From Methanosarcina barkeri str. Wiesmoor (lineage in GTDB: Archaea; Halobacteriota; Methanosarcinia; Methanosarcinales; Methanosarcinaceae), in contig NZ_CP009526.1 in the NCBI RefSeq assembly GCF_000969985.1, forward strand, positions 3,162,001 to 3,226,000: 64,000 nt of DNA, read 5' to 3'. Positions 10,024 through 55,504 of this stretch are shown here, piece by piece (within the stretch, counting starts at the first letter, position 1; every line of letters begins with the position of its first letter). The position numbers and the translations under genes were made by a program. The notes below the pieces were generated by a model. It saw nothing but the letters and a program-made list of their open reading frames with translations, was not told the DNA's origin and made no database searches.

Positions 10024-11925
10024 TCATTCTTTGAGCTTGATTTTACAGGTTGGCAGGATGTTAAATGGTTGAGTAATCTCATTGCCGAAATTTTTAGTAG
10101 AGTCCTGATTTGGCACCTCCATTTCGAAGTAATTATACAGTGTTTGCGTGTGTGGCCAAATACCAGAGGAAGGCCTGTGGAAAGACCTGTTAGGTCTTGC
10201 TTCTTTAAACCGCATACCATAAAACTGCAAATAAAAATCATCTGCTTCCTTTTTCAGGTCAACTTCAAGTTTTCCAGGATGCAACTTGTCTGTTATATAC
10301 ATTAGTCCCAATATCCAGCGAGGGCTTCCAAAATCCCAGGAAGGCGGAATTTCATAGACCCGATGCTGTGTCACAGCATCGGCATGTATTCCATATTTCT
10401 GGCACAGGGCATAAAACTCATCAAGAGGACGAGAAAGGAAACCCGAGACAAAAATAACCCCAGGGTTGTGCTCATTAATAAAGGAAGGGGAAACACTTAC
10501 ACCCAGTTTACCTTCCTTTTGAAGCTGCTTATTGATACTCACACCACCGGAAAATGTCACAAGGTTATTTTCCATTCTGCCGGCATTCAGGGCAAAGAAA
10601 GGAGATCCCATGCAATAATACACATAATAACTACTTTTTCCTGCTGAAAGATTCTGGACAATTTGCAAGCGCTTGTGAATGAAAGAAACAAGTTCTTCTC
10701 CTTTTTCCGGCATATTAGCTTTTTCAGCAATAAACTTGATGAACTCTAGATAAGAGTACGGCTGCCGTATCATATTATGTATTTGCATAAGAGTTTTGGG
10801 GTTTGAGACTTTACTCCAGACATCCATTAATTTGTCCTCACCCCAGATATCCATTAGTTTATAATCATCTAGTACTCCCAGGCATGTAAGTACTGCATGA
10901 ACCATACTGAAAGCCTGGCTTATACTGTAACTGTCCATTAAGCCTGCTTCACTGAAACCTTCAGTGGGAGCTTTACCCTGGACTGGAATGCTGCAACCGC
11001 AGCTACATTTGTGACTTAACCAGGGTTTTACAAGCCTGGAGCCAAAAGGCCTGTGAAATTCCCGTTCTATTAGGAGACGGCCACATTCAGGACAGTATGT
11101 GTTTAATAGTTCCGTGCCTGGAGAATTAAAGAGGTAGACAAAATCCAGATATCTGCGCAAGTCAGAACATATTTTTTCCGCTTCTCCTATTGATGGTTCC
11201 AGTTCTATCGGAGCATAGCCGAAGGGAAGGAATCTCATGACATGCAACGGAATAGTAGGAGATATATCAGACACTGCCTCTGCGACTTTTATAACATCCT
11301 CTTCATTTCCCCTTGAATAAGCGATTGAAGTTTCAACATGTACTCCCATATCAAAAAGCCTGGAAATGTTGCGAAAAACAGGAGCTGATGAAGTAACTCC
11401 ACAATTCCTATAACCTCTGTCAGAATAACCTTTAATTCCCACATTCACAAAGTCAACAAGCTGTCCAAACTCTTCTAAAGTCTCACTTGTGAAATAGCAA
11501 TTGGTTGAACAACCTACAAGTAAACTTTTTTCCTGTGCCTGTATTGCAAGATCCCTAAAAAGATAGTAATTAGCAACAGGATCATTTAGTGTCGAAACTA
11601 CGCCCAGACACTCCTGCTTTAAGGCTCGTTTCACGACCTCGGATGGACTGAGTGAGGCCTGTTGAGTGGAAGGTTCACTTGATGCTGGCATCCGTGCCGC
11701 ACAACCAGGACACTGAAAATTACACCCTTTACTGAAAATTTGCAGGAACTTGCCTGAAGGATAAAAATGATGTAAAGGGACTTCTTCTATTGAAATTGGA
11801 TATGCTCCCATATATCCCATACCAGGGTACTGGGTTATAGTATTGCCAGTGCTTACATAAGTGCCACATCTGCCCGTACTATGCTTATTGATTTCGCACC
11901 TGACTTCGCATATATTGCATTGCAT
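10024..11925 (-). CDS. Radical SAM protein (AmmeMemoRadiSam-like) fused to a binding-protein-like domain
   Basis: 633 residues. The N-terminal half has a cysteine block (C3, C6, C10, C20), the radical SAM motif CNFQCPGC (C68, C72, C75), a TIM-barrel-like region, and a zinc-ribbon region at about 275-310 (CPECG ... CSCGC), as in the AmmeMemoRadiSam radical SAM family. The C-terminal half (about 330-600) is unrelated to that family. It has a ligand-binding-protein look: IFVSGFLSRPLDEF, VYEIPPSWDFGSPRW and LGLMYITDKLHPGKLEV ending in FYLQFYG. This closely parallels the C-terminal helices of the PF01497-type proteins encoded at 28.8-34.8 kb (KTLHP...FYxxFY). There is no signal peptide, so the binding domain is cytosolic. 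The start ATG follows GGGAGG. It lies upstream of vnfH in opposite orientation. The reaction is unknown. Confidence 0.85.
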   Translation of the reverse strand: MQCNICEVRCEINKHSTGRCGTYVSTGNTITQYPGMGYMGAYPISIEEVPLHHFYPSGKFLQIFSKGCNFQCPGCAARMPASSEPSTQQASLSPSEVVKRALKQECLGVVSTLNDPVANYYLFRDLAIQAQEKSLLVGCSTNCYFTSETLEEFGQLVDFVNVGIKGYSDRGYRNCGVTSSAPVFRNISRLFDMGVHVETSIAYSRGNEEDVIKVAEAVSDISPTIPLHVMRFLPFGYAPIELEPSIGEAEKICSDLRRYLDFVYLFNSPGTELLNTYCPECGRLLIEREFHRPFGSRLVKPWLSHKCSCGCSIPVQGKAPTEGFSEAGLMDSYSISQAFSMVHAVLTCLGVLDDYKLMDIWGEDKLMDVWSKVSNPKTLMQIHNMIRQPYSYLEFIKFIAEKANMPEKGEELVSFIHKRLQIVQNLSAGKSSYYVYYCMGSPFFALNAGRMENNLVTFSGGVSINKQLQKEGKLGVSVSPSFINEHNPGVIFVSGFLSRPLDEFYALCQKYGIHADAVTQHRVYEIPPSWDFGSPRWILGLMYITDKLHPGKLEVDLKKEADDFYLQFYGMRFKEARPNRSFHRPSSGIWPHTQTLYNYFEMEVPNQDSTKNFGNEITQPFNILPTCKIKLKE

Positions 11926-13683
<1,758 letters not shown>

Positions 13684-14065: not shown

Positions 14066-16190
<2,125 letters not shown>

Positions 16191-16194
16191 ATAA

Positions 16195-17595
<1,401 letters not shown>

Positions 17596-18388: not shown

Positions 18389-19918
18389 ATGGCCGGCGTT
18401 GCTAACGAAAATGTAGTGTTTTTTGGGCATTTAAGCGAGCTTTATCAATTAGCAAAAGAAGGGAAAATTGAAACAAAACTACAGGGCAGCCATACCCGTC
18501 CCTGTAAATTCTGGACGGCAATGAAAATCCTGAGTGGCATTAAAAATACTGTCGTTATTGCTCATGGTCCCAGTGGCTGCGCATTTGGAGTAAAACAGGC
18601 TTACAAGCTCACAAATTGTAGAAACAGTGGTTCTCCATATGAGTCCATAATTACTACAAATATTGATGAGAAAGCCATTGTATACGGTGGCGAAAAGGAA
18701 CTGAAAGGCGCCATACTGGAGGTGGACAAAAAGTATAAGCCTGACGTTATTTTCGTAGCAACAAGCTGTGCCACCGGAATAATTGGAGATTATGTAGATG
18801 CCATAGTGAATAAAATCAAGCCCAAAATTAATGCCGAAATCGTGGCCATTCACTGCGAAGGCTTTGCTGGAGAGTACAGGAGTGGGTTTGACCTGGTTTT
18901 CAGGCAGATTGTTCAGCTTATGGACAAGCCTGACTCGGAGAGCAGATCAAGGCTTGCCAACTCCGTCAACATCGTAGGGGGCAAAATGGGTCCTGAGAGG
19001 ACGGAGATTGAAACTGATGTTAAAGAATTGAGGCGGTTAATAGAAAGCATGGGTGCAAATGTAAATGCCGTAATAGCAGGCAATTGTTCACTGGAAGAAG
19101 TAAAACAGGCCCCCAGTGTAGCGGTAAATTGTACCCTTTGCCTTGATCTGGGGTATGCAATAGGAAGAGAGATGCTTGACCAATTTAATACTCCGTTAAA
19201 CTCCACTATTCTTCCGTATGGTATAAGTGCAACTGAGAGGTGGCTGAGAGAAGCAGCAAAGCATTTACATTTGGAAAATGAAGCTGAAGAACTGATCAAA
19301 AGAGAATATGAAGCCATAAGCGTCGAATTTGAAGAGGCAAAAAAATACCTTGCAGGCAAGCTGGCAATTGTTGAAGGACATGATGCAATAAAGTCTCTGT
19401 CAATTGCTCATATGCTTGAACGCGATTTCGATATGAGGGCGGTAATATACAATTTTCATCCCTGGAGTACGCAGGCAAGAGAAACAAGTATTGATTACCT
19501 CTTAGAGACCGGGCTTGATCCGGAAATACTGATCACAAAAGGTACACTTGCCTTTGGAAAATATGAAGCAATGGTTCAGACCGAAAATGAGCTTATGGAA
19601 TATCTGGGAGATCTGAATCCCGAGACAACCGTGTATTTTGGATCATCAATGAGCTTTCCGAATATTCCAGTAGTTGATTTAAATGCCATATTGAACCGCC
19701 CCAGATTTGGATATAGGGGAGCCTTAAAGGTAGCTAAATGCATCTGCACTGCTCTTGAGTATTCTTTCAGACCGCGCAGCTGGGTAACGAAAAAAATGGT
19801 ATTCCCTGAAGATTCCGGGCTATGTTCAGCCCAGTCCCTTACACCGAAGCTGGCTCAGGATTTGCCGGATTGCACGGTTTATGCAGGAAGGGAGAGAGGC
19901 AAATGTATGATGAGTTAA
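18389..19918 (+). CDS. vnfE: Nitrogenase cofactor scaffold VnfE (NifE-like)
   Basis: 509 residues, a nitrogenase-alpha paralogue that with VnfN forms the scaffold on which the cofactor precursor is completed. Cluster cysteines are preserved at RPCKFWTAMK, GPSGCAFG and TSCATGIIGDY, and NCTLCLDLGYAIG covers the cofactor side. The C-terminus extends past the NifE core with a CMMS end and Cys residues (GLCSAQ, DCTVYAGRERGKC). It is followed by vnfN with a 16-base overlap. Confidence 0.92.
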   Translation: MAGVANENVVFFGHLSELYQLAKEGKIETKLQGSHTRPCKFWTAMKILSGIKNTVVIAHGPSGCAFGVKQAYKLTNCRNSGSPYESIITTNIDEKAIVYGGEKELKGAILEVDKKYKPDVIFVATSCATGIIGDYVDAIVNKIKPKINAEIVAIHCEGFAGEYRSGFDLVFRQIVQLMDKPDSESRSRLANSVNIVGGKMGPERTEIETDVKELRRLIESMGANVNAVIAGNCSLEEVKQAPSVAVNCTLCLDLGYAIGREMLDQFNTPLNSTILPYGISATERWLREAAKHLHLENEAEELIKREYEAISVEFEEAKKYLAGKLAIVEGHDAIKSLSIAHMLERDFDMRAVIYNFHPWSTQARETSIDYLLETGLDPEILITKGTLAFGKYEAMVQTENELMEYLGDLNPETTVYFGSSMSFPNIPVVDLNAILNRPRFGYRGALKVAKCICTALEYSFRPRSWVTKKMVFPEDSGLCSAQSLTPKLAQDLPDCTVYAGRERGKCMMS

Positions 19919-21243
19919 AATTCGATAACTGCAACCATAGCAAAGACCCTATGGTCGGATGCGCTCTTGAAGGTGCCACCGGAGTGCTGGCTGGCATAAA
20001 AGACATTAGCATTGTCATACATTCCCCGCAAGGCTGTTCTTCAACGGTTTCAGCAGCCTATGACGTCCATGAAATTGATTTCACGAAAAGAAAAGTTGCA
20101 TGCACCAGGCTTTTTGAAACTGATGTGGTTATGGGCGCGTCAAGCAAGCTGAAAAACTTAATCAAAGAAGCTGACTCAAAATTTAAAACTAAGGCGATAT
20201 TCGTAGTTGGTACATGTGCAGCTGATATCATTGGAGAGGATATCGAGGGTTTATGTCGAAACATCCAGCCGCAAATTAATGCGAAGCTTATTCCCTTGAT
20301 GGCAGGAGGGTTTCGAGGAAACCTCTATGATGGCATTGAACTAGGACTGAATGCATTATTTCCCTTTATAAAAAAACAAAATGAAAAAATTCCCTGTAGT
20401 GTGAACCTAATAGCGCCTCAGGCAAACCTGAACCCTACCTGGTGGGCAGATTTGGAATGGGTACGTGAAACCCTTGAAAAAATAGGAATTAAAGTTCAGG
20501 CTGTACTTCCTCACGATACATCTCTGGAAGAACTGGATAATGCTGGGCTAGCATCGGCAAATATACTTCTCAGTCACGATGCAGGGTATGAGTTTGGGTT
20601 AAAAATGAAGGAAGTACATGACATACCGCTTATACTATCGGATATTCCACTTCCAATAGGACTTAAAAATACTGCAAGATGGCTTCGTGCAGTGGGAAAT
20701 TATTTTGGCGTCGAAGAAAAGGTTGAGGCTATAATAAAAGACGGAGAAGATCTGGCCATTGACGTGCTGAGACGCAGGGGATTGATGATGATTCCCAGGT
20801 ACCGTAACTGCAGAGTAGCCGTTTCTGCGGATGCGACTATGGGAATAGGCCTGACCAGAATGTTATTTGAAGAGCTGGAGATGATTCCGGAACTGTTGCT
20901 TTTCAGGTCGCCTGTATCTGACTCCCAGTTGTTGCTGGAAAATGAGCTTACCGATATGGGAATTTCCCCGAAGGTTGTCTTTTCGGCGGATGGGTATCAG
21001 ATAAAACAATCTTTGATGGAAAGCTGTGTAGATGCTGTATTCGGCTCTTCGTGGGAGTATTATCTGGCTGAAGAACTGGGGATAAAGTTTGTGTTTGACG
21101 TTTTTAACCCTACAAACCGGCAGAATTACTTGAACAGGGCATATTTCGGATACGAAGGCATGCTGAACTTTTTGGAGAATGTTGCAAACGACTGGGAAAG
21201 AGCTCTGCGTTCAAAGCACATTGACTGGGAAGAGTATTCGTAA
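19903..21243 (+). CDS. vnfN: Nitrogenase cofactor scaffold VnfN (NifN-like)
   Basis: 446 residues, paralogue of the beta subunit and partner of VnfE. The pattern MVGCALEGATGVLAGIKD and SPQGCSSTV carries cluster cysteines, and VVGTCAADIIGEDIEG matches the third. I moved the start from an in-frame ATG at 19822 to the ATG at 19903. That removes 27 residues that merely read through vnfE and places GGGAGAGAGG at the right distance. Confidence 0.92.
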   Translation: MYDELKFDNCNHSKDPMVGCALEGATGVLAGIKDISIVIHSPQGCSSTVSAAYDVHEIDFTKRKVACTRLFETDVVMGASSKLKNLIKEADSKFKTKAIFVVGTCAADIIGEDIEGLCRNIQPQINAKLIPLMAGGFRGNLYDGIELGLNALFPFIKKQNEKIPCSVNLIAPQANLNPTWWADLEWVRETLEKIGIKVQAVLPHDTSLEELDNAGLASANILLSHDAGYEFGLKMKEVHDIPLILSDIPLPIGLKNTARWLRAVGNYFGVEEKVEAIIKDGEDLAIDVLRRRGLMMIPRYRNCRVAVSADATMGIGLTRMLFEELEMIPELLLFRSPVSDSQLLLENELTDMGISPKVVFSADGYQIKQSLMESCVDAVFGSSWEYYLAEELGIKFVFDVFNPTNRQNYLNRAYFGYEGMLNFLENVANDWERALRSKHIDWEEYS

Positions 21244-25885: not shown

Positions 25886-26896
25886 TTATCCCAAACACCA
25901 ATTGAGTTCGGTATCAATCCTCTCTCCATTTCTCAACATGTCACGCAGTTCAATAATTTTGCAATCAAGACGTTCCATATACCTCAAATTCTTTTTTTCC
26001 TGCTGACTCGTCTCAATTATATTAAACATTGCACCATTCCTGATCACTATCCGGCGATCGCCCATTAAAGCTAGTAGTGGATCGTGAGTAGATATGAGCA
26101 CTATTTTTTCTTTATTAACTAGAAGTTCCAGAGCTTTTCTCCTGTTAACTCCTGCATTCTCGATCTCATCAATCAAAACAACAGGCGATGTACTTAACAA
26201 AGCTGTATCAGCAATCATTAGTGAACGTGCTTGACCCCCACTGAGTTGAGTAATTGAAACATCGTCATTAAATTTTTCTCCGGTAAGTCCATTTGCAGTA
26301 CAAATTATTTTATTAACCGTTTCATCCTTCTTGGAAATCATACGGCATTCAGCATGCATAGTAATGAATTCCCTTACCGTGAGGTCTACAACAAAATTCA
26401 TGTTTTGGGACAACTGTGACACTATCTTTTGGTCCATTGAAAAGCGTTTCTTTGCTTCAGGTACAAGCCCGTTTATTAGAACCTGCCTTCCTGTCGGCGT
26501 ATCTTTTTGTGCCATACATTCGATGTCCGCCAGCAGCCGACTTTTTCCGGAACCAGTAGGACCAACAATACAAACTATTTCGCCAGGTTTCAAGGTAATG
26601 CTTGCATCCTCTGTATTCCCTAACTTGTCTTTTCCCCCAATTACCGTAAGGGAGCTTATTTGATGTTGATTTTCGGGAATAACATTTATTTGGATTATTG
26701 CTTCGATATGGTTTAATATCTGTTTTTGATCCATTCCTGAATCCCTCAGGAATTCATCTGTCAATCCTGCAAGCCATTCCTGCAAGGTTAAGGACTGAGG
26801 TAGTTCTTTTAATCCAATTGATGCAAAAAAATCTGCAACAAATGGATGAAAATTTAAAATGTCCTTAATCGATGAAGTTAACAGATGATCATCCAC
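25886..26896 (-). CDS. Soluble ABC ATPase with DUF1858-like N-terminal domain
   Basis: 336 residues, GTG start with GGGGG 7 bases upstream. Residues 1-65 (SIKDILNFHPFVADFFASIGLKEL) resemble the DUF1858 fold found next to redox and metal-cluster proteins. Residues 80-310 are an ABC ATPase: Walker A GPTGSGKS (112-119), signature LSGGQ (218-222), Walker B VVLIDEIENAG (239-249), H-loop H271. There is no membrane domain, and no permease gene accompanies the trio. It starts 2 bases after the GTPase gene. I infer that it drives a conformational or delivery step in the cytosol rather than import. The function is unknown. Confidence 0.85.
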   Translation of the reverse strand: MDDHLLTSSIKDILNFHPFVADFFASIGLKELPQSLTLQEWLAGLTDEFLRDSGMDQKQILNHIEAIIQINVIPENQHQISSLTVIGGKDKLGNTEDASITLKPGEIVCIVGPTGSGKSRLLADIECMAQKDTPTGRQVLINGLVPEAKKRFSMDQKIVSQLSQNMNFVVDLTVREFITMHAECRMISKKDETVNKIICTANGLTGEKFNDDVSITQLSGGQARSLMIADTALLSTSPVVLIDEIENAGVNRRKALELLVNKEKIVLISTHDPLLALMGDRRIVIRNGAMFNIIETSQQEKKNLRYMERLDCKIIELRDMLRNGERIDTELNWCLG

Positions 26897-26898
26897 AT

Positions 26899-27591
26899 TT
26901 ATACCCCCTTAAAAACCATTTTTTTTGCATTTCCACGTTGGTAATCTTTACTGATAACAGTTTCTCCTACACAATAAGGACATACAGCTGACGGCATGGA
27001 AAAACGTAATTTCCTACCTTCAAGCTTTTCTACTTCGGTTGCACTGCGCAAGTAATAGCTTAAATCAAAAGCTCCCTGGCCAGTAATTCCATTGACAAAC
27101 ATAATATGGGCTTTAGGATTTGCCAATCTTACATTGAAGGCAAAAACCTCCCTTTCTGCTTGCGATACAATATCACTCTTTGTAATGACGACAACGTCCG
27201 CTAATCTCAGCATTGGGCCGATTTTTTTTGGTGTATGAACCCCTGAAAGATTATCAATAACACATACTCCCAGTACTTCTTTAATATGTGGGGAGCATCT
27301 GTTGCATAAACCAGCACTCTCGGTAATAAGCATATCCAGGTTGTTTTCTTTTCCCCAGGTAAGGCATTCGTCAATATTACTCACAAAGAAATGGTCAGGG
27401 CATAAATTTCCAGAGAGTCCAACCATAACCGGCAATCCCATCTTTTCATAGGCAAGGTCATCTTTTGTAGAAAGTGCATCAAACTTGATAATGCCTATTT
27501 TTTTACCTTCTTTTTTTAGGTGTTCAACCGTTTTCAGTATGACTGAAGTCTTACCTACTGAAGGCGGCCCTGCCACTGTAATTAATCTCAT
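26899..27591 (-). CDS. HypB/UreG-like (G3E/SIMIBI) metallochaperone GTPase
   Basis: 230 residues from the ATG at 27591, preceded by GGAG 9 bases upstream. P-loop GPPSVGKTS (8-16), switch and Walker B region LITESAGLC (89-96), guanine-specificity motif TKSD (137-140). Cysteine pairs CNRC (96-99, joined to the ESAG motif) and CPYC (204-207) plus C64 look like metal ligands. HypB and UreG insert nickel into enzymes; CobW-type relatives handle Zn or Co. Here it sits between a solute-binding-like protein and an ABC ATPase next to nifV, so a nitrogenase-related metal, possibly vanadium, is an attractive guess. Confidence 0.87.
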   Translation of the reverse strand: MRLITVAGPPSVGKTSVILKTVEHLKKEGKKIGIIKFDALSTKDDLAYEKMGLPVMVGLSGNLCPDHFFVSNIDECLTWGKENNLDMLITESAGLCNRCSPHIKEVLGVCVIDNLSGVHTPKKIGPMLRLADVVVITKSDIVSQAEREVFAFNVRLANPKAHIMFVNGITGQGAFDLSYYLRSATEVEKLEGRKLRFSMPSAVCPYCVGETVISKDYQRGNAKKMVFKGV

Positions 27592-27605
27592 CTCACGTAT
27601 CTCCT

Positions 27606-28724
27606 TCAAATTTCAGTATCCTGCTTTTCTCGTAAGTATCGAGTCTTTGTAAAAGGAGTGCTCTGCCAGACTTCAAAAAATACCTTTGACGTTAGCCGGA
27701 TTAATTCCATGGTATCATTGGAACGCACATAATCCCACCCCAGCCATTTCAGTTTAGCATTATCCGGATATCTGTAGTTAACTTCGGGATTTAGAGAAGG
27801 ATAACAATTATCAACCAGATACTGTCCTAACCCTCTACCCGTAACGTATTTAATTAATACATCCAGTTTCTCCAGCTTTGATTTCTTGGCTAGAATATAA
27901 AACGGGAATGCCAGAGCACCATCTTCCGGCCATATTACAGAAGTATTTTCACGCCTTGGACAAATATCAGCCAGAAACCAGGGGATAATATATATGGCTG
28001 CGCCAAGCTCACTATTAGAACCTGCGATTCTCGACATATGAACATAATGCAGCATGTTTTTTGTATTGTATGCCAGATATTTTAAGCTCTGAATTCCATG
28101 CTCCTTATACAGATCTAAAAATAAGAAAGAATTAAACTCAGAATACGGGTTATTTTCATCTTTCCGCCAGCCGCCAATTATTATTTTGTTATGGTAAATC
28201 GGATCAAGAATATCAATCCAACGTCTGGGGATGGGCAGCCCATCCAGTTTCCTGTGATCTACAAGAAAAACAAAAGGAACTACTGCAAAAATAGTAAATT
28301 GTTTTTCAGGATCTTCTATACCACAGTCAGCGTATATTGGAGGTAACGGCTTAGGTTGACACGCCTGGAAATAACCTTTATCAATAAATTTTTCAAAAAA
28401 GTGCTTCTCAAATAGGTTATCAAATGATGGAGACAACACCATATTAGGAAAATCGTCAATGCTATCCACGTTGTGAATATTTTCAAAAGGGAAATAACCG
28501 CTTCCTCCACCCATAGGAAAATAGCAATTGAGTCGGATTCTTTTTTCAATCCTGTGTTTCTTTAATACAGCCTCCAAACCGTCCTTGAAAGTGTATTTTA
28601 AAGGAACCGGAATTCTCCCCATAAAATCAAATTCTCCAGGCGAAAGTTCACCGCTGCACAGTTCGGTTTCACACATATAGTCATCTCTTTCTATGGAGAA
28701 ATCTAAAGAACACCTATTTTCCAC
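27606..28724 (-). CDS. Solute-binding-protein-like protein without signal peptide
   Basis: 372 residues, GTG start behind GAGGGG. The central and C-terminal parts (IPRRWIDILDPIYHNKIIIGG, ENTSVIWPEDGALAFPFYILAKKS, LGQYLVDNCYPSLNPEV) match class II extracellular solute-binding proteins of the iron(III)/anion type. The N-terminus, however, is hydrophilic and Cys-containing (C5, C18, C23), with no signal peptide or anchor, so it should be cytosolic. It ends 14 bases before the GTPase gene. A binding protein, a GTPase and an ABC ATPase without permease suggest an intracellular metal-handling machine. The function is not known. Confidence 0.8.
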   Translation of the reverse strand: MENRCSLDFSIERDDYMCETELCSGELSPGEFDFMGRIPVPLKYTFKDGLEAVLKKHRIEKRIRLNCYFPMGGGSGYFPFENIHNVDSIDDFPNMVLSPSFDNLFEKHFFEKFIDKGYFQACQPKPLPPIYADCGIEDPEKQFTIFAVVPFVFLVDHRKLDGLPIPRRWIDILDPIYHNKIIIGGWRKDENNPYSEFNSFLFLDLYKEHGIQSLKYLAYNTKNMLHYVHMSRIAGSNSELGAAIYIIPWFLADICPRRENTSVIWPEDGALAFPFYILAKKSKLEKLDVLIKYVTGRGLGQYLVDNCYPSLNPEVNYRYPDNAKLKWLGWDYVRSNDTMELIRLTSKVFFEVWQSTPFTKTRYLREKQDTEI

Positions 28725-28819: not shown

Positions 28820-29908
28820 TTAAGTGTTGGCAGGCGGCAAATGCTGCAGTATCCTGTTTGCCTCGTCATCTGTCAGGTTGTAGTGGTAGAACCTCGAATA
28901 GTAATCTTTGACCTCATTGGTCATGTTCAAATCCTGGAACAAATCAGGATGCAATGTTTTAGCAAAATACTCCATAAGCAACACTCCTTCAGCACCATAA
29001 TCCCACCAGGCTACTCCCTGCGGGCAGAGATATACCTTGTTATTCTGTACAGCCTTCAAATTAATGAACTTGGAGTCATTAGCAAATATATCTGTACTGT
29101 TAACATGACCTACATAGATCACATCAGGATTCCATACAAGTAGCTGCTCCGGTGTAATTGTTTCAATCCCTTCTGTATCTCCAGAAATATATTTGCCGCC
29201 AGCCATCTCCACATAAAACTGCGGATAAGAGTTTTTACCCTGATTTGTCATTGCATCTATGGCATAGTATACTGTTGGGCGCTGACTATCTGTGAGGTTT
29301 GCAGTTCTCGATGTCACATAATTTGCCTTCCGATCGAAATATACACCCCATTCGTCAGCAGTCTTTTTTGCATCCGGGCCCATTACTTCACCATAAAGCG
29401 CTATTTCCTGCTTCACATATTTTACGAAAGAGTCTACATTCTCAGGATTTCCTGAGTTTTTCTGAGTGACCACAACAGGAATATTACTCGAATTTAATTT
29501 ATCCCTTGTAAAATCCAGGCAAAATACTACCTGTACTTTTTTGCTTATGAGATCTTCAACATTAGGATTTTGCTGATTTCCATTCATTGGAATATTTCTC
29601 AACTGCGGAGCTACCTTATAGGCCCATGGGAAATCGTTGGACACACGTATTGTCACTGCCATTTTGTCTGTTTGATTTAGCAAAATTAATTTTTCATATG
29701 ATTGACCAGCAAGAGCAGCGACATGAGTCACATTTGCTGGTATAGTTACAACTCGTCCCTCTTGATCTGTTATCTGAACGTATTTATCAGATCCTATCTC
29801 ACTACCTTGATCAGCCTTTGTGTTACTATGACCTACATGTGTAACGGCAGATACTATTGCAAGGATTGCAATAACCGTAACAATAGCCACTATACCTCTT
29901 TTATCCAT
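28820..29908 (-). CDS. ABC-type metal-chelate binding protein, copy B
   Basis: 362 residues. N-terminal hydrophobic anchor (residues 5-25, no lipobox cysteine), then a class III binding domain of the FecB/BtuF type (PF01497): YVQITDQEGRVVTIPANVTHVAAL, a central long helix, and the C-terminal LMEYFAKTLHPDLFQDLNMTNEV. It is a tandem duplicate of the gene at 30013-31095, with long identical stretches. It is the fourth gene downstream of the FecCD-type permease. The anchored location is the outer face of the membrane. The ligand could be iron, cobalamin, molybdate, tungstate or vanadium chelates; sequence does not decide. Confidence 0.9.
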   Translation of the reverse strand: MDKRGIVAIVTVIAILAIVSAVTHVGHSNTKADQGSEIGSDKYVQITDQEGRVVTIPANVTHVAALAGQSYEKLILLNQTDKMAVTIRVSNDFPWAYKVAPQLRNIPMNGNQQNPNVEDLISKKVQVVFCLDFTRDKLNSSNIPVVVTQKNSGNPENVDSFVKYVKQEIALYGEVMGPDAKKTADEWGVYFDRKANYVTSRTANLTDSQRPTVYYAIDAMTNQGKNSYPQFYVEMAGGKYISGDTEGIETITPEQLLVWNPDVIYVGHVNSTDIFANDSKFINLKAVQNNKVYLCPQGVAWWDYGAEGVLLMEYFAKTLHPDLFQDLNMTNEVKDYYSRFYHYNLTDDEANRILQHLPPANT

Positions 29909-30012
29909 TCAATCGCCCTAAACTCGTGTATAATTTGTATTGATCAGTTATTTTTCGAGAGATTAAAGTGAAATTTATCTTATCCTGCAATGCTATCGAT
30001 TTTTTCAAATGA

Positions 30013-31095
30013 TTAATAGCTGGCAGGTGGCAGATGCTGCAGTATCCTGTTTGTCTCGTCATCTGTCAGGTTGTAGTGGTAGAACCTCAAATAGTAATCT
30101 TTGACTTCATTGGTCATGTTCAAATCCTGGAACAGCTCAGGATGCAGTGTTTTAGCAAAATATTCCATAAGCAACACTCCCTCAGCGCCGTAATCCCAGT
30201 AGGCTACTCCTTGTGGGCAGAGGTATACTCTTTTATCTCGTACAGCTCTTATGTTACTCAATCGAGTATCGTTTGTAATTATATCCGTACTGTTAACTCG
30301 GCCTACGAAGATTACATCAGGGTTCCATGCCAGCAACTGCTCCATTGTGACACTTTGAAGCCCTTCCTTATCGGTGTTTTTTGCAACATATCTACCACCA
30401 GCCATTTCTACATAGAATTGAGTGTACGAATTTTTTCCCTGGGTTGTTATTGCGTCTGGACCTCTAGCATAGTATACTGTCGGACGCTGACTATCTGTAA
30501 GGTTTTTAGTTCTCAATGTCACATAATTCACTTTCTGATCGAAGTATGCACCCCATTCTTCGGCAGTCTCCTTCGCATCCGGGCCCATTACTTCACCATA
30601 AAGCGCTATTTCCTGTTTCACATATTTAGTGAACGAGTCTATGTTATCAGGATTTCCTGAGTTTTTCTGAGTGACCACGACAGCTATATCACTTGAATTC
30701 AGTTTATCCTTAGTACCATCATATGACAAACAAAATACTACCTGCACTTTTTTGCTAATAAGATCTTCAACATTAGGGTCATTTTCTATAGGTATATTTT
30801 TTAGCTGTGGAGCTATCTTAGATGACCAAGGCAAATTGGTCCACGCAGATATCGTGACTGCCATTTTGTCGGTTTGGTTCAACAATATCAATTTTTCGTA
30901 TGCCTGACCAGCAAGAGCAGCTACTCTGGTGACATTCGTCGGGATGGTTATGTTCCGGCCTTCTTGGTCTGTAATATTTCTGCTCGGATCAGAGTTTTTT
31001 ATTTCTTTGCTACTGTGATCTATATTTATTGCAGTAGATACTATTGCAATGACTGCAATAACCACACAAATAGCCACTACACTCCTTTTGTCCAT
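30013..31095 (-). CDS. ABC-type metal-chelate binding protein, copy A
   Basis: 360 residues, paralogue of the next gene downstream with the same anchor (MDKRSVVAICVVIAVIAIVS) and fold (NITDQEGRNITIPTNVTRVAAL, LLMEYFAKTLHPELFQDLN). It lies 83 bases after the ATPase gene of its transporter. The duplicated protein could widen ligand range or dose. The ribosome binding site (GAGGTGC) is part of a short tandem repeat. Confidence 0.9.
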   Translation of the reverse strand: MDKRSVVAICVVIAVIAIVSTAINIDHSSKEIKNSDPSRNITDQEGRNITIPTNVTRVAALAGQAYEKLILLNQTDKMAVTISAWTNLPWSSKIAPQLKNIPIENDPNVEDLISKKVQVVFCLSYDGTKDKLNSSDIAVVVTQKNSGNPDNIDSFTKYVKQEIALYGEVMGPDAKETAEEWGAYFDQKVNYVTLRTKNLTDSQRPTVYYARGPDAITTQGKNSYTQFYVEMAGGRYVAKNTDKEGLQSVTMEQLLAWNPDVIFVGRVNSTDIITNDTRLSNIRAVRDKRVYLCPQGVAYWDYGAEGVLLMEYFAKTLHPELFQDLNMTNEVKDYYLRFYHYNLTDDETNRILQHLPPASY

Positions 31096-31099
31096 CCAG

Positions 31100-31168
31100 G
31101 CACCTCAAATTTTTTTGCTATTGCACCTCAAATTTTTTTGCTATTGCACCTCAAATTTTCTCGCTGTT
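31100..31168. repeat. 23-bp tandem repeat spanning a ribosome binding site
   Basis: Two perfect copies and one degraded copy of a 23-base unit (starting GCACCTCAAATTTTTTTG on the plus strand) between the ATPase gene and the binding protein. On the transcribed minus strand each copy carries GAGGTGC, so the Shine-Dalgarno element of the downstream gene is present three times. Confidence 0.85.
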
Positions 31169-31178
31169 ATGCCTCAGA

Positions 31179-31988
31179 TCAGAAACAGCCTATATTCATA
31201 TGTGATTCTTGTATTTGCATAGGAATACATGCTCTTCTATGCTCATCTACGTCTATAATTTTAACATCAACTCCATAGGCCTGTTTCATATTATGTTCAG
31301 TGACAACAATTTCCGGTTTTCCTGTTTCCATAATTGTGCCCTGATTCATGATAGCTACCTTATTACAGGATAAGAAGGCGTGGTCTGGAAAATGTGAAGT
31401 CATTACAACCGATAGTCCAGTTTTAGACAATTCCTTTATGACTTTGAGCGTTCGTATCTGGTTTCCAAAATCCAGATGGGATGTTGGTTCGTCGAGGAGA
31501 AGGATCTCGGGCTGTTGAGCTATTGCTCTTGCCATTAAAACAAGCTGCCTTTCACCACCACTGATCTCAGTGTAGGTTTTATTCTTTAGATGCAAAATTC
31601 CAAGCCTTTCCAGAGCCTCTTCAGCAATTTTATAATCTTTCGTTCCGGGAACAGATGTTAAACTCAAATGTGGAGTTCTGCCCATCAGAACTATATCGAG
31701 AACTGAAAACGCAAAAATTGAACTATTTGATTGCGGGATATATCCGATGATTTTTGCAAGTTCGGTTTCTTTCATTGAATAAATACTCTTATTTTTCAGT
31801 AATATCTCGCCACCCTTCAGTTTAAGCAGGCTGTTCATACATTTGATTAAAGTCGATTTTCCGGTCCCGTTAGGCCCCAGTATACATAAGACGTCCCCCT
31901 TCTCAACTGAGAGGTTCACGTTTTTGAAGACGTTTTTCTTTCCGTTGTAAGAGAACTCTGCATTCCTAATATCCATAATATTGCTCAT
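31179..31988 (-). CDS. FecE/BtuD-type ABC importer ATPase
   Basis: 269 residues from the ATG at 31988, which overlaps the permease stop (ATGA) behind GAGGG. Walker A GPNGTGKS, signature ISGGERQ, Walker B LLLDEPTSHLD and switch histidine (MTSHFPDH) are all present. It energises uptake of the ligand delivered by the two binding proteins encoded downstream. The C-terminal tail contains two histidines and a cysteine (HRRACIP, HMNIGCF). Confidence 0.93.
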   Translation of the reverse strand: MSNIMDIRNAEFSYNGKKNVFKNVNLSVEKGDVLCILGPNGTGKSTLIKCMNSLLKLKGGEILLKNKSIYSMKETELAKIIGYIPQSNSSIFAFSVLDIVLMGRTPHLSLTSVPGTKDYKIAEEALERLGILHLKNKTYTEISGGERQLVLMARAIAQQPEILLLDEPTSHLDFGNQIRTLKVIKELSKTGLSVVMTSHFPDHAFLSCNKVAIMNQGTIMETGKPEIVVTEHNMKQAYGVDVKIIDVDEHRRACIPMQIQESHMNIGCF

Positions 31989-33028
31989 GACCATCCCTCG
32001 TAGCCTTTTTGGAGTAAGTATATGAAAACGGGTGCTCCTATTATGGCTGTTAGTATTCCCAGAGGAATTTCAATGGATGTGGCTGTTCTGCACACATCAT
32101 CAACCAGCAAAAGGAAAGTAGCCCCCAGTGAAATGCTTGCAGGCAAAAGCTTTCTGTGATCCGGACCCACAATCATCCTGGCTGCGTGAGGTATTACAAG
32201 ACCCACCCAGCCAATAATGCCACTTATGCTTACAGCGGAAGCTGTTAAGAACGTACAGCAAAAAATTACCAGCAGCCTCATTTTTTCTGTGTTTACGCCC
32301 AGTGAACGCGCTTCATCATCTCCCATTGAAAGAACGTTAATTCTCCATCCAATAAGCAGTAGTGCTGTAAATCCGATCAGAGCAGGCCCTACTATCATCA
32401 AAACGCTGTTACTGTTAACTGCAGAGAGGCTACCCATAAGCCAGTATACTATTTCTGGCAGTTTGCTGTCAGGATCTGCAAGGTACTTGATACATGAAAT
32501 GAGAGCAGAAAAGAGTGCTGCGATAGCTATCCCTCCCAGTACCATCACCAAAATAGTATTGCCCCTAAGCCTTTTGCTGAGATAGTAAGTAAGGATAACT
32601 GCAACGAGGCCGAATAAAAAGGCTGTAGCCTGAATCATTACTGCGGAAAAACTGAACAAAATAGCTATTGCAGCTCCAAAACCTGCACCTGATGAGACAC
32701 CCAGGATATCTGGAGAGACCAGTGGATTCTGGAAAGTCCCCTGAAAAGAAGCCCCTGAGATTGAGAGGGCAGCACCTACAATCATCGCAGATATTATACG
32801 TGGCAAACGTATATCCCAAACTACTGTATAAATGGTTGAATCCAAATTTGTGGTGATAGGCGCAAAAACCGATACAATAGCCAGTATGACCTCCATAGGA
32901 GATACTGGATATCTGCCAATCATAAAAGATCCAAAAAACAAAAGTATTGGGAGTACAATCAATGTGGTTGTTAAAGATATATTTCTAATGGTTTCCCTGT
33001 TTATTCGCCTGTTCATTATTCTTTCCAC
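31985..33028 (-). CDS. FecCD/BtuC-type ABC importer permease
   Basis: 347 residues with about ten membrane helices and the FecCD family motifs (LPRIISAMIVGAALSISGASFQGTFQNPLVSPDILGVSSGAGFGA, GIIGWVGLVIPHAARMIVGPDHR). It is the first gene of the minus-strand set permease-ATPase-binding protein-binding protein-trio-nifV; the following ATPase gene overlaps by four bases. The homodimer forms the translocation path for a metal chelate. Confidence 0.94.
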   Translation of the reverse strand: MERIMNRRINRETIRNISLTTTLIVLPILLFFGSFMIGRYPVSPMEVILAIVSVFAPITTNLDSTIYTVVWDIRLPRIISAMIVGAALSISGASFQGTFQNPLVSPDILGVSSGAGFGAAIAILFSFSAVMIQATAFLFGLVAVILTYYLSKRLRGNTILVMVLGGIAIAALFSALISCIKYLADPDSKLPEIVYWLMGSLSAVNSNSVLMIVGPALIGFTALLLIGWRINVLSMGDDEARSLGVNTEKMRLLVIFCCTFLTASAVSISGIIGWVGLVIPHAARMIVGPDHRKLLPASISLGATFLLLVDDVCRTATSIEIPLGILTAIIGAPVFIYLLQKGYEGWS

Positions 33029-33474
33029 ACCAAACGTTTACAAATTATCCGCAGTTTCTTTCGGAGTATCTTTTTCAAGCTCGCTCATGGAGTTCAACAC
33101 ATCACTACATTGAGGTTTCAGCTATTGTTTTCCTGTTTTACTGCGTTAATTTTGTATGTTGCACTTTAATTCCTCCTTTACTATTTAGTTCTCAATTTGA
33201 ATTTCTTTGAACGTTTTGTAGTCGATATGTTCATAGAGACATAACAAATTATATATGCCAAAATACCAGTAATCAATTTCCTATATATTAGTATAAATAA
33301 CTTACCATAAACTCGCTTTCTTACCATGCCTTCGAGCGAACAAAAAAGAGCTAATAGAAGCACTTCAGTTGAAAAAGTATGTTCTTTTTTAATCCGGCCG
33401 CCATCTCTTTTTTGCTTTTGATCCCTGCAGCCATTTCTTTTTTGTGATTTATTCATACCTTCCTTTTGAATAAT
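33029..33474. other. Control region upstream of the importer operon
   Basis: About 450 bases with no credible gene. A minus-strand frame at 33181-33483 is open but has low-complexity basic composition and no ribosome binding site. The region must hold the promoter of the permease operon. Confidence 0.4.
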
Positions 33475-33687: not shown

Positions 33688-34824
33688 ATGAGAACAACAA
33701 AAAGTCCACTAAGTTTGTTAATCGTGCTGTGTCTGTTAATAACACTATCTATACTGCTTATAAGTGGATGCTCACAGAAAACAAGCGATGTTATGGAAAC
33801 AACATCAAATCCCAATGCTGAGATGGCTGCTGCAGCAAATACGGATCAGGAAACAACAATGTCGGATACTGTAGTGTCAGATACTCGGGTAATTACCGAT
33901 TTAGCAGGTAGAAAAATCACTTTGCCTGCTGATATTACCAGGATTTCAGTGTTACATCCGATACCGTGCCAAATGGTATGGAGGCTGGCGCCGGAAAAGC
34001 TTGTGAGTGCGGACAAGCAGTTTACTGAACGACTAGAATTTATGTCAACTGATGAAGAAAAGAGGCTGCTGGCTCTTCCGATTAATGGAGAATTCCACAG
34101 TGACATGAACATAGAAGATCTTTTGGCAGTCAGTCCACAAGTAGTAATAACGTTAACAAAGGATACGAAAATTGAATCAGAACAAAAAAAAGTTGGCATT
34201 CCATTCATTGCTGCGTCAAAAGATACGCTTGAAGAGATTGCAGATTCATGGAGATTAATCGGTAAAATTGTTGGAAATGAAAAAGAAGGAAACGAGCTTG
34301 GGGATTACTGGGATGAAACCATCAAAAAGGTTACCGATCAAACCTCGAAAATTAAAGAAAGTGATAAGCTCAAAGTATATTATGCGCAGCCAGATGTCAC
34401 CAAGACGGTTGGGTCCAGAACCATTATGGCGTCTATCATCAGTTTGGCGGGAGGCATAAGCTTCATGGAAGCAAATCCGCAAATGGAATCGGCCAATACA
34501 AGTGAAGAAATCCAGGTCTCGCTGGAACAAATCTATCAGTGGAATCCAGATGTTATTATTACTAAAACTGCGAAAGGTCGTGATGAAATTCTCTCGAAAG
34601 ACGCCTGGAAAGATATTGCTGCCGTAAAGAATAAGCGCGTTTACGCATCTACAAAATACGAGATGCTTGACCGGACACAATCGCTGATGGGACTTTTGTG
34701 GACCGCGAAAGTGCTTTATCCGGATAAAGTGAAAATTGACCTGGACAAAGAGGTAAAAACATTTTATTCAAAAGTATATCTTGATAATAACGTGACTAAT
34801 GATCAAATCAGTCAGACAAATTAA
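33688..34824 (+). CDS. ABC-type metal-chelate binding lipoprotein
   Basis: 378 residues. Signal peptide with lipobox LISGC (cysteine near residue 28), a threonine/serine-rich linker, and a PF01497-type domain (RVITDLAGRKITLPADITRISVLHP, QIYQWNPDVIITK). It differs clearly from the duplicated pair across the intergenic region. It has no permease of its own, so it may serve the divergent FecCD importer. It is expressed from the duplicated leader. Confidence 0.88.
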   Translation: MRTTKSPLSLLIVLCLLITLSILLISGCSQKTSDVMETTSNPNAEMAAAANTDQETTMSDTVVSDTRVITDLAGRKITLPADITRISVLHPIPCQMVWRLAPEKLVSADKQFTERLEFMSTDEEKRLLALPINGEFHSDMNIEDLLAVSPQVVITLTKDTKIESEQKKVGIPFIAASKDTLEEIADSWRLIGKIVGNEKEGNELGDYWDETIKKVTDQTSKIKESDKLKVYYAQPDVTKTVGSRTIMASIISLAGGISFMEANPQMESANTSEEIQVSLEQIYQWNPDVIITKTAKGRDEILSKDAWKDIAAVKNKRVYASTKYEMLDRTQSLMGLLWTAKVLYPDKVKIDLDKEVKTFYSKVYLDNNVTNDQISQTN

Positions 34825-47250: not shown

Positions 47251-48198
47251 TTAGTAGTGAATAAAAAGCTGTGGAACATATTTTAGATAGCTTTCTTTTA
47301 ATTCAGCTTGGGTTATGTGGTCATAGATGTCTATAGCTTCCTTCCTGGAATCTCCCCGGAGTTCCTGGATTATGGACCTTGGACAGCCGGAGCGACGCAT
47401 CCAGGTAGTGAAGAAATGCCGGAAGCAGTGAGGCGTGAATTTTTCGTTGAGTTTTCCCTGGGGATTGTGGAAGCCTAGACGCTCTGCGTGTTGTGTTGTA
47501 GCGTCGTATACTGTGTCCCGGTTGATCCGGTCACCTTTGACACCGAGAAAGAGAGCCTTAGAGTGGACCTTCGGTCTTTTATTCTGTCTCCATGTAATCC
47601 ATTCTTGGAGGACCTGAGAACATTCGTTATCAAAGAACACTATACGGTTAGATCTCTTTGCATGTGGCTTTAAGATTGCATAGTTTTTTGAGAGATAGAG
47701 GTCCTGGAGATCAAGGTCTATTAGCTCCTGCCTTCTTATTCCTGTCTTGGCAAAGAAAATGAACATTGCTTTAAAGCCGATCCATTCAGTCGAATCTATT
47801 AAGGCCCGCATCTGTTCCAGACTGATAAGCTGTCTTTCTTCATGACGTTGTTCTTTGTAGTACCTTAAGTATCGCTTCCTGAATTGAGGGACTATATTTT
47901 TTTGTACTCCTTCATATTCGAGGTAATCAAAAAAAGATGAGAGTGCAGCGAAGTAGTTTTCTACTGTAGAAGGAGCGAAGTTTTTTTCATCCCGAATGTG
48001 AACGAGAAAAGATTTCAGGACTTCTGGAGAGATTTCTATAGAGTGCCTGGATAGGAAGTATCTCAAGCAACTTTTGTAGGACTGTATAGTTCGTGGGGAG
48101 AAGTTCCGAACCTGGCAGTCTAGCAGGAAATTAGAAAGGAGGCTTGTTTCGGGGAGGTCCTGAACACCACAGTCTAAAAGTATGTTGTGTTGATACAT
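47251..48198 (-). CDS. int: Tyrosine recombinase (integrase)
   Basis: 315 residues. The N-terminal SAM-like core-binding domain (about 20-110, CQVRNFSPRTIQSYKSCLRYFL) precedes the catalytic domain with R155 (TGIRRQEL), H257 and R260 (HCFRHFF) and nucleophile Y292 (IYDHI). The usual LGH box reads RGDS. It catalyses integration and excision at tRNA-Ser. It lies close to attL and is likely the last gene of the long leftward set. Confidence 0.93.
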   Translation of the reverse strand: MYQHNILLDCGVQDLPETSLLSNFLLDCQVRNFSPRTIQSYKSCLRYFLSRHSIEISPEVLKSFLVHIRDEKNFAPSTVENYFAALSSFFDYLEYEGVQKNIVPQFRKRYLRYYKEQRHEERQLISLEQMRALIDSTEWIGFKAMFIFFAKTGIRRQELIDLDLQDLYLSKNYAILKPHAKRSNRIVFFDNECSQVLQEWITWRQNKRPKVHSKALFLGVKGDRINRDTVYDATTQHAERLGFHNPQGKLNEKFTPHCFRHFFTTWMRRSGCPRSIIQELRGDSRKEAIDIYDHITQAELKESYLKYVPQLFIHY

Positions 48199-48339
48199 GC
48201 TAAAAAGTTGTATAATGTTTTTATTAGTGTTTTAAGCCTGTACAGCTGAGTGTAAAAGTTGTACATTATTTATAAAAAATATAGTTTTTGCTCCTGAGGA
48301 TAGGGAAGCTGAAAAAAAGAGGAGTGAGGTAAGAATTGT

Positions 48340-48654
48340 TTAGATTGGAGTTAGTTTAGAAACTAGCTCGTACATTGTTTTTTCGTTGAGTTCTAGGGCG
48401 GTGGAGTTTATACCGTTTTCGAAAATGTGTTTTTCGATTGATGAACAGCTATCGAGTGTTTCAAGTGTTTCAGGTGTGAGGTAGTTTTTTTCTCTGAGAT
48501 ATTTTTCTACTGCTACGTTAATTGTATTGCTTAGATCAAGACCGTACATGTCGATTGTTTGTTTAAGGAAGTTTTCTAAGGATGGCCGGATTTGTACCCG
48601 GTCCTTTTTTCCCAAGCCCAGGTTACGAGCGACGACGATAGAACAGCGTTCCAT
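48340..48654 (-). CDS. Small protein, possible ribbon-helix-helix regulator
   Basis: 104 residues, ATG behind GGGGG. The segment DRVQIRPSLENFLKQTIDMYGLDLSNTINVAVEKYLREKN has the strand-helix-helix pattern of RHH/Arc-type DNA-binding proteins. The remaining C-terminus is helical. Position next to the integrase suggests control of integration or of the structural genes. Family assignment is tentative. Confidence 0.65.
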   Translation of the reverse strand: MERCSIVVARNLGLGKKDRVQIRPSLENFLKQTIDMYGLDLSNTINVAVEKYLREKNYLTPETLETLDSCSSIEKHIFENGINSTALELNEKTMYELVSKLTPI

Positions 48655-48717
48655 ACTGAACCCCCTTAAAAAATAGATTAGGGATAGTATAAAAAACGTA
48701 TGGTGTTAAAGTGTTGG

Positions 48718-49713
48718 TTATTGGGAGACTACGGCTTTTAGGGCGGTTACAAGGTCTTCGAGGCCTATGCTTGATTTCTGGGTTCTGGGTTTATGTTCGG
48801 GTTCCAGGTGGCCTATGTACCGGATGTAACCGAGATCTTCACCTTTTCCATACCAGGGGATTCTTATTTTGTCGGTGAAGGTTTTGGAAGGGAAGGAGAT
48901 TATTGCTTGTCCGGGTTCGAGCTTTTCAAAGAGGCGATTGAAGCGGTATAGTTTAGGCTGTTCGCTGCTGGGGTAGTTTGCGCCTCTGAGGGAGATTAGG
49001 AACTGGAAGGAGGACCTTATCCCTGGGCGAAGTTTGCGCCAGCCGTGGGAAGATGCGACGAGTCGGACGTTTTGACTTCTTAGCTGTTCGGCGTTGTGCT
49101 GGAGGATTGCGCCTGCTTGCTGGTCTCCTGAGAATCCTTGTCCTCGGCTGGGTGCTATGTTGTTGAGTTCGTCTAGAAAGATTGCTACTCTGGGGTTTTT
49201 GCCTTTTAGCTGTGAGTAGGTGTATCCTGCAGGTTTTAGGTCGTAGTTCATTGCTTTTAGGATTAGGGATTCAAAGAGCTTGGCTGTGGTGGGAGCTACT
49301 AGGGAAGGGTGAAGTATGAAACGCTGGAGACATAGGACGTTTATGTGGTCACGGTCTAGGAGGTTCCAGACTTCTTTGGGATCCTGGAAGTATATTTTTT
49401 CTATTTCGTAGTGTTGGACTTCTTCGCCGTTTTCGTCTTCGAAGAAGTTTATTTCTATATTACATGATTCAGGGATTAGGAGTCTAACAGGGGCCATTCT
49501 GGAGAGCTGCAGGATTTCTGAGCTTTTGCCTCTGTCAAACCAGACTAAGGTTTCCCACTGGCTGGCTGGAAGCTTGTTTCTTGCCTGCAGGAAGCCGTCT
49601 ACGAGCCAGAACATGAGGGTAGTTTTTCCTGATCCTGTATTTCCGTTTTCTAGGCCGTGTTGACCAGGGGAGAGGATGAATTCTTTGAAGAGTTTTTCTT
49701 CCCAGCTGTTCAA
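48718..49713 (-). CDS. FtsK/HerA-superfamily NTPase (virion NTPase-like)
   Basis: 331 residues, TTG start with GGAGG 8 bases upstream. Walker A GNTGSGKTT (24-32), Walker B RVAIFLDELN (175-184), and a later SSHGWRKL sensor-like stretch. The NTPase is short, lacking membrane helices, similar to the Zot/HerA-like NTPases conserved in pleolipoviruses and other archaeal viruses, where they are thought to act in genome packaging or release. It follows the small membrane protein gene. Confidence 0.82.
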   Translation of the reverse strand: MNSWEEKLFKEFILSPGQHGLENGNTGSGKTTLMFWLVDGFLQARNKLPASQWETLVWFDRGKSSEILQLSRMAPVRLLIPESCNIEINFFEDENGEEVQHYEIEKIYFQDPKEVWNLLDRDHINVLCLQRFILHPSLVAPTTAKLFESLILKAMNYDLKPAGYTYSQLKGKNPRVAIFLDELNNIAPSRGQGFSGDQQAGAILQHNAEQLRSQNVRLVASSHGWRKLRPGIRSSFQFLISLRGANYPSSEQPKLYRFNRLFEKLEPGQAIISFPSKTFTDKIRIPWYGKGEDLGYIRYIGHLEPEHKPRTQKSSIGLEDLVTALKAVVSQ

Positions 49714-49715
49714 GG

Positions 49716-49883
49716 TTAGACCTCCTTTTCTTCGTGTTCTTCGTTGGGTAGGAATGAGGAAAGGAAGGATAGTATCTGATTTTGAGAGTATTTTCCTGCC
49801 AGATAGCCGAGTGTAGCGGAGAAGATGCCTACCAGGAGACAGAGCTTTTGTATGTCGAATGGGTCTACAGTCCAGAGTATCAT
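49716..49883 (-). CDS. Small single-span membrane protein
   Basis: 55 residues (start MILWTVDPFD, one membrane helix at about 12-32, acidic C-terminus ending EEKEV). The ATG overlaps the upstream stop (TAATG) and a GGTGG lies 5 bases before it. Its own C-terminal codons carry the GGAGG that serves the NTPase gene. No family known. Confidence 0.75.
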   Translation of the reverse strand: MILWTVDPFDIQKLCLLVGIFSATLGYLAGKYSQNQILSFLSSFLPNEEHEEKEV

Positions 49884-50272
49884 TATTGCCACCTGCTGCC
49901 TTGTATTTCTTTGATCATTGATTCGGTTATGAGTTCATGTTTGTGTATTATGGTCATTAGCTGGAGTCTTGTTATGTCCAAGGCTTCTTCTATGGATTTT
50001 CTTCTTTCGTCTGCGATTTGGATGTATTCAGGGTCGTCTAAGATTGGTTCGTATGTTCCTCGGATTGTGCTTATGTCTCGGTGGATTTCTTCAAGGAAGT
50101 TTTTGTCTTCTTCTTTGAGGCCTTCTTTTTCTGAGACTGCAGCGGTGATTGTGTATATTAGTGCTACAAGGGAGATCTTAGCCCGGAGGCTTGCGTCTAT
50201 GGTATAGACCTGGGACCTGAGGGCTTCGGCAAGAAGGTAAGGTAGACCAAGGAATTTTTTATCGCTCTGCAT
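49883..50272 (-). CDS. Unknown helical protein
   Basis: 129 residues, mostly alpha-helical and charged (EKEGLKEEDKNFLEEIHRDIS), with a modest hydrophobic stretch at about 30-48. Overlaps the preceding gene by 14 bases and the following one by one base. I recognise no family. Likely a structural or accessory component of the element. Confidence 0.7.
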   Translation of the reverse strand: MQSDKKFLGLPYLLAEALRSQVYTIDASLRAKISLVALIYTITAAVSEKEGLKEEDKNFLEEIHRDISTIRGTYEPILDDPEYIQIADERRKSIEEALDITRLQLMTIIHKHELITESMIKEIQGSRWQ

Positions 50273-50675: not shown

Positions 50676-50680
50676 GCTCT

Positions 50681-50812: not shown

Positions 50813-50823
50813 GCTGACCTCCA

Positions 50824-51195: not shown

Positions 51196-51228
51196 GCTGG
51201 ACCTCCTTATTTGGAAAATAGTGCTATC

Positions 51229-51666: not shown

Positions 51667-51680
51667 TATGTGAACCCCCC

Positions 51681-52625: not shown

Positions 52626-52627
52626 GT

Positions 52628-54763: not shown

Positions 54764-54765
54764 GT

Positions 54766-55140: not shown

Positions 55141-55156
55141 TTGGGGATGCCCTCCT

Positions 55157-55486: not shown

Positions 55487-55504
55487 ACATGAGAATAAAG
55501 TGTG

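Follow-up and report, generated by a model that had tools for sequence, protein, structure and literature searches.

On the minus strand of the 64,000-nucleotide stretch of Methanosarcina barkeri str. Wiesmoor DNA analyzed here (the window), one gene encodes a fusion protein in which a radical SAM domain distantly related to AmmeMemoRadiSam enzymes is joined to a domain that shares ancestry with class III (FecB/BtuF/MolA-type) binding proteins. A link of this fusion to molybdenum is well supported at the level of sequence by predicted ModE-type operators, ModE and Mop neighbors, and kinship with MolA. The fusion suggests an undescribed enzymatic step in the handling of imported molybdenum, tungsten, or vanadium, and the metal is in all likelihood one of these three. 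We tentatively favor a role in which radical chemistry processes an imported Mo/W(/V) complex in the cytosol, the half binding-protein domain serving as its holder and a methyltransferase as helper. The parts are known in kind (radical SAM enzymes, class III import, and ModE control); it is their combination, together with an enzyme carrying half of a binding protein, that appears to be new, and no description of the fusion was found in the openly licensed literature. The gene and its parts are as follows.

10024..11925, minus strand: fusion gene, radical SAM domain plus half class III binding-protein domain, 633 amino acids (open reading frame list, Pfam/NCBIfam, profile searches, models)
10966..11925, minus strand: radical SAM part, residues 1 to 320 (family matches, alignment, full-length model)
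10150..10962, minus strand: C-terminal part, residues 322 to 592, a helical region replacing the N-lobe, then spine helix and C-lobe (models, profile alignments)
10024..10149, minus strand: C-terminal extension, residues 593 to 633, predicted to be disordered (alignment and model)

The open reading frame is intact, with an ATG start, 633 codons, and no internal stops. Its product passes the Pfam Radical_SAM model (PF04055; 44.1 bits against a cut-off of 29.5) and has the CX3CX2C motif in a partial TIM barrel that characterizes the radical SAM superfamily. The original prediction gave the N-terminal half AmmeMemoRadiSam features, citing a CNFQCPGC stretch and a late zinc ribbon. Both are borne out, since CNFQCPGC (residues 68 to 75) is the CX3CX2C motif and C278/C281/C307/C309 form the ribbon, each invariant across 39 fusions. 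Likeness to the AmmeMemoRadiSam radical SAM enzyme extends to an N-terminal Cys motif (C3, C6, C10, and C20), the overall radical SAM domain, and a match to TIGR04337 over residues 1 to 307 (E of 3.7e-29), but strict membership in that family is rejected. The TIGR04337 match scores 101.7 bits, below the cut-off of 220; a maximum likelihood tree places the 39 fusions on one side of a 100/100 branch and 30 plain AmmeMemo enzymes opposite; and AMMECR1 and Memo are not alongside the fusion but ~0.6 and 1.1 Mb distant in the same genome. Furthermore, Y23, P43, G74, C139, C175, M230, and F266, among others, are invariant or nearly so in the fusions and not in the plain enzymes (C139 in 39/39 fusions and C175 in 38/39). 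The best structural neighbors of the radical SAM half are pyruvate formate-lyase activase and NifB.

The C-terminal half had been proposed as a cytosolic binding-protein-like domain sharing an LHP...FYxxFY pattern with binding proteins encoded nearby. By eye, this pattern is indeed common to both, reading KTLHPDLF...YYSRFYHY and KTLHPELF...YYLRFYHY in the neighbors at 28820-29908 and 30013-31095. A profile of the domain searched against whole genomes returned class III binding proteins at E values of about 1e-14 to 1e-28 and the sister operon's own binding protein at 6e-18, while the nearest PDB entries were 4pag (1.7e-17), 4ovk (1.1e-16), MolA 3psa (2e-8), and 4hn9. The comparison with FecB/BtuF-type folds agreed with the prediction, as an AlphaFold2 model of the domain (pLDDT 80, pTM 0.83) matched only class III binding proteins among its top 50 PDB matches (best E of 1.1e-9). 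What holds of the binding-protein likeness is homology to class III proteins in both sequence and fold; it covers only residues ~387 to 579, which make up the spine helix and C-lobe, and not the whole half. In a profile-profile alignment against 17 operon binding proteins (99.7% probability), query positions 57 to 250 pair with 156 to 354; the N-lobe, about 155 residues, is absent, and helices occupy its place in the models. A complete, two-lobed binding protein is ruled out by alignment and model. The fusion further differs from class III binding proteins in being joined to an enzyme and in having no signal peptide by eye (the protein begins MQCNICEVRC), which agrees with the domain's predicted character and points to a cytosolic location. 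On the C-lobe, the fusions also conserve other residues than the operon binding proteins do, so the fusion's ligand may differ from theirs; the conserved C-lobe face of the fusions includes R450, E452, N453, and D531 to W537. A full-length model built from the 39 fusions (pLDDT 84, pTM 0.84) suggests that the domains are held in a defined, fixed arrangement.

The canonical setting of the fusion is an operon encoding, in order, a class III binding protein, a class I methyltransferase, the fusion, a permease, and an ATPase. This order is seen at the second copy in this genome (C2:574681) and in other Methanosarcinaceae, and it recurs in whole or in part in archaea and bacteria. We compared the neighborhoods (about 10 kb) of 53 fusion loci with those of 67 control loci of plain AmmeMemo radical SAM genes. 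A binding-protein gene was found nearby at 37/53 fusion loci versus 0/67 control loci, a methyltransferase at 34/53 versus 0/67, and a permease at 29/53 versus 1/67, tying the fusion to metal-import genes as had been anticipated. The chelate or cofactor modification step put forward in the original prediction is plausible. The profile of the operon binding protein matches PDB 4pag from Sulfurospirillum deleyianum (4e-134) and MolA 3psa (4e-42). MolA serves low-affinity import of molybdate and tungstate, and compared with the class III-type MolABC system of Haemophilus influenzae (PMC4031551), the fusion operon adds a methyltransferase and the radical SAM fusion and has ModE-type operators in front. 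The window also carries the following import-related genes.

25886..28724, minus strand: ABC-type ATPase, CobW/HypB-like GTPase, and SBP_bac_6 protein (family matches; homologues in locus L146)
28820..33028, minus strand: class III import genes (binding proteins 28820-29908 and 30013-31095, ATPase 31179-31994, permease 31985-33028)

The SBP_bac_6 protein has no obvious signal peptide, making the 25886-28724 genes a second possibly cytosolic binding-protein-like set. Elsewhere in the window, 47251-61000 holds a tyrosine recombinase-like gene, an FtsK/HerA-like ATPase, and large unassigned open reading frames, and looks by eye like an integrated mobile element.

Molybdenum genes adjoin the fusion at several loci. 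ModE and Mop genes (families confirmed) neighbor the fusion in a single bacterial group, Sulfurospirillum and relatives, where TonB/ExbB genes accompany them. A Desulfobacterota locus (L146) has modABC and an HTH-PBP_like protein, as well as homologues of the window's GTPase, ATPase, and SBP_bac_6 protein beside the fusion. An FmdE gene is found near the fusion at L145 and L151. Among archaea, locus L111 has modA-modB-modC-methyltransferase-fusion in one direction, and L112 has MoeA and Fwd genes beside the binding protein and fusion. Taken singly, ModA, MoeA, and FmdE are not significantly enriched near fusions (53 versus 67 control loci), and several fusion loci have no other molybdenum gene. 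HTH proteins with a PBP_like C-terminal domain are encoded near fusions at L146:11566-12678 (PF12727) and L151:8969-10096 and are candidate molybdate-type sensors. A Bac_globin gene lies inside the Sulfurospirillum ModE/fusion cluster (L018:8292-8861; also L139 to L141 and L143); in L018, L139, L140, and L141, a ModE-type site is located 49 bp upstream of this gene.

The same neighborhoods bear on an alternative that we regard as unlikely, namely, that the methyltransferase and fusion synthesize a small Mo/W chelator (molybdophore) instead of degrading one, with the half domain holding the nascent chelator or its metal complex. It would suit a gene set whose steadiest members are only two SAM enzymes and an importer, and in Seleniivibrio (L016) there are efflux genes on both sides. 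However, no consistent exporter or further biosynthetic genes accompany the fusion, and its constant partners are importers, joined in bacteria by TonB-dependent receptor-like or TonB/ExbB genes. The processing of a complex that has already been imported is the reading we continue to favor.

The case for molybdenum is strengthened by the predicted operators, whose layout, GTTATGT-N8-ACATAAC, is that of the E. coli modA operator. The latter (GTTATATTGTCGCCTACATAAC in the MG1655 record) has 0 mismatches to GTTATAT-N8-ACATAAC, so that its arms resemble those of the archaeal dyad at all but one position and the spacing is equal. Sites of this type in the window are listed here without strand.

12280..12301: ModE-type operator GTTATGTTTATTTATACATAAC, 355 bp upstream of the fusion start; conserved in M. 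spelaei with 1 mismatch
12590..12611: ModE-type operator GTTATGGTTGTTCAAACATAAC, 245 bp before vnfH
33224..33245: ModE-type operator with 1 mismatch, GATATGTTCATAGAGACATAAC, between the permease (minus strand) and a binding protein at 33688-34824 (plus strand)
33571: weaker ModE-type site with 2 mismatches, in the same permease/binding-protein gap

The two in the fusion/vnfH gap are perfect dyads (GTTATG-N10-CATAAC, at 12280 and 12590); in the shuffled window, even the looser dyad GTTAT-N12-ATAAC averages 0.07 occurrences and never occurs twice. Genome-wide, the perfect dyad is found in five places: the two between fusion and vnfH, and one each before modAB, the anf operon, and the fmd operon. 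An operator thus precedes the fusion, as in a ModE regulon, and its dyad is shared with modAB, anf, fmd, and vnf. One-mismatch sites lie 33 bp before the canonical fusion operon, at the window's binding-protein/permease pair, and in front of a gene for a class III binding protein that adjoins fmd. At locus L185, operators (C2:4469896 and 4471756) precede the fmd operon and the adjoining class III binding-protein gene. Across Methanosarcinaceae, 20 sites with at most 1 mismatch were found in 20 fusion loci, whereas the 67 control loci gave 1 and Markov-simulated sequence gave 0; most of the fusion-operon sites are 33 to 34 bp before the first gene. No operator with at most 1 mismatch was found in 21 other archaeal fusion loci. 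Bacterial loci yielded 11 such sites in 7/17, several of them in fusion-cluster promoters. Sites number 2 to 10 in 11 of 13 genomes of the genus; the reversed pattern is absent from 12 of the 13 and occurs twice in one. A ModE-like protein encoded in this genome (C2:4493569) scores 66.6 bits against TIGR00637, below the cut-off of 98.5, and has a TOBE-like C-terminal region by eye. Sites for the nitrogen regulator NrpR (GGAA-N6-TTCC) were not found within the window. Repression by molybdenum probably acts through the predicted ModE-type operators.

Across the gap from the fusion lies a vanadium nitrogenase cluster.

12856..13683, plus strand: vnfH, divergent from the fusion (TIGR01287, TIGR01860, and TIGR02932 above cut-off across the vnf genes)
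After vnfH: two PII-type (nifI-like) genes, vnfD (14458-15855), a vnfG-like gene (15810-16190), vnfK (16210-17595), and nifE/nifN-like genes (18389-21243)

Co-occurrence with nitrogenase had been expected of the fusion, and as a requirement it fails. Nitrogenase alpha is encoded in 48/295 archaeal genomes; it is present in 13 of the 33 fusion carriers and missing from the other 20, and the odds ratio for co-occurrence, 4.2, is confounded by shared ancestry. Since 20/33 carriers are without it, the role of the fusion is not tied to nitrogenase. A nitrogenase-specific role is rejected on this ground and because the canonical copy in the same genome sits in an import operon away from vnf and the vnf-side copy is derived. 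The common thread appears to be molybdenum regulation, as read from the ModE-type operators, and not vnf itself.

More doubtful than chelator synthesis is a role for the fusion in carrying or sensing a metal or oxyanion in the cytosol. The half domain would then hold Mo, W, or V, and the radical SAM domain would act on a partner protein or a cofactor precursor, for instance during maturation of nitrogenase or formylmethanofuran dehydrogenase. The closeness of the radical SAM half to pyruvate formate-lyase activase and NifB is in keeping with this, as are sites before anf, vnf, and fmd within one regulon. Against it, nitrogenase is missing from most archaeal carriers (20/33), and the partners of the fusion are an importer and a small-molecule-type methyltransferase, not one target enzyme. 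It is rather improbable that the ligand is some other complex (heme, corrinoid, or an Fe/Ni chelate) and that the molybdenum link is regulatory cross-talk only. Heme, cobalamin, and Fe and Ni chelates are also among the ligands of the class III fold, and Bac_globin genes occur in the Sulfurospirillum cluster, but the ModE-type operators, the modAB/fmd/anf/vnf regulon, the near relative MolA, and the ModE/Mop/FmdE/modABC neighbors all argue for molybdenum.

Fusions are carried by methanogenic archaea and certain anaerobic bacteria. Full-length relatives from Seleniivibrio, Thiobaca, Sulfurospirillum, and a deltaproteobacterium are ~40% identical, and carriers of the sampled fusions belong to Halobacteriota, Desulfobacterota, Campylobacterota, Deferribacterota, and one purple sulfur bacterium. 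In samples that each include the genome on which they were centered, a clear fusion was present in 33/295 Halobacteriota genomes, 6/249 genomes of the phylum of Sulfurospirillum, 8/345 of the phylum of L019, and 1/369 of the class of Thiobaca. A divergent second subfamily (L109, L160, L113, and L118) has 31 to 36% identity to the window protein, and the L113 fusion adjoins its genome's nitrogenase cluster. Within the Methanosarcina fusions, the window copy and its M. spelaei counterpart, 88% identical and in the same divergent position, form a sub-branch of the tree described above. Judged from sequence, the window copy is a recent, derived paralogue. Among aligned fusions, the tail at residues 593 to 633 is confined to these two vnf-linked copies. 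A 9-residue internal duplication (KLMDIWGED/KLMDVW; window 10810-10860, about residues 355 to 371) is likewise found only in vnf-linked fusions and falls in a low-confidence loop of the model. The internal duplication, disordered tail, and want of a methyltransferase or importer directly beside it might imply that the copy next to vnf is neutral or in decay, with no role of its own; this is very improbable given its intact reading frame and an 88% identical M. spelaei counterpart in the same divergent place with conserved operators.

Processing of an imported complex could proceed as follows. When molybdenum is scarce, ModE-type repression would be lifted, and the class III importer (binding protein, permease, and ATPase) would take up a complex of Mo, W, or V. 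Once in the cytosol, this complex would be held by the half binding-protein domain against the radical SAM barrel, which would form the other wall of the cleft and substitute for the missing N-lobe. A 5'-deoxyadenosyl radical, aided by the operon's class I methyltransferase, would then modify or break the ligand, and the freed metal would become available to nitrogenase or pterin cofactors. During expression of V-nitrogenase, the vnf-side copy would carry out the same processing. The cleft geometry, with the barrel replacing the N-lobe, is purely hypothetical, as are the ligand and reaction of the fusion. Our working analogy is ChuW, a radical SAM enzyme of anaerobic heme degradation that is encoded in an import operon and frees the metal from an imported complex. 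ChuW is HemN-like, whereas the apparent metal of the fusion is Mo or W, and no HemN/ChuW family match was found among NCBIfam hits up to an E value of 1 for the window fusion.

In sulfidic water, thiomolybdate and thiotungstate are the soluble forms to be expected. Soluble thiomolybdates form readily from sulfide and molybdate under the conditions in which methanogens are grown (PMC10390477), which makes a thio-anion a possible ligand. It is a long shot that the genes provide an enzymatic route for thiomolybdate or thiotungstate, in which class III import would be followed by stripping or conversion of the sulfur ligands by the cytosolic methyltransferase and fusion before cofactor synthesis. 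Such a route would account for the many carriers that live in sulfidic or anoxic habitats and for the absence of chelator synthesis genes.

How anaerobes acquire molybdenum and tungsten when sulfide or chelators hold these metals is a question that bears on both nitrogen fixation and methanogenesis. The conserved operon, pairing a class III importer with a half-binding-protein radical SAM enzyme behind predicted ModE-type operators, offers a concrete gene set with which to study it. The fusion may also show a new design of enzyme cleft, in which a lobe of a binding protein serves as substrate holder for radical chemistry. Together, the operator and the genes that it precedes outline a candidate molybdenum regulon in Methanosarcina that includes vnf, anf, fmd, and mod.
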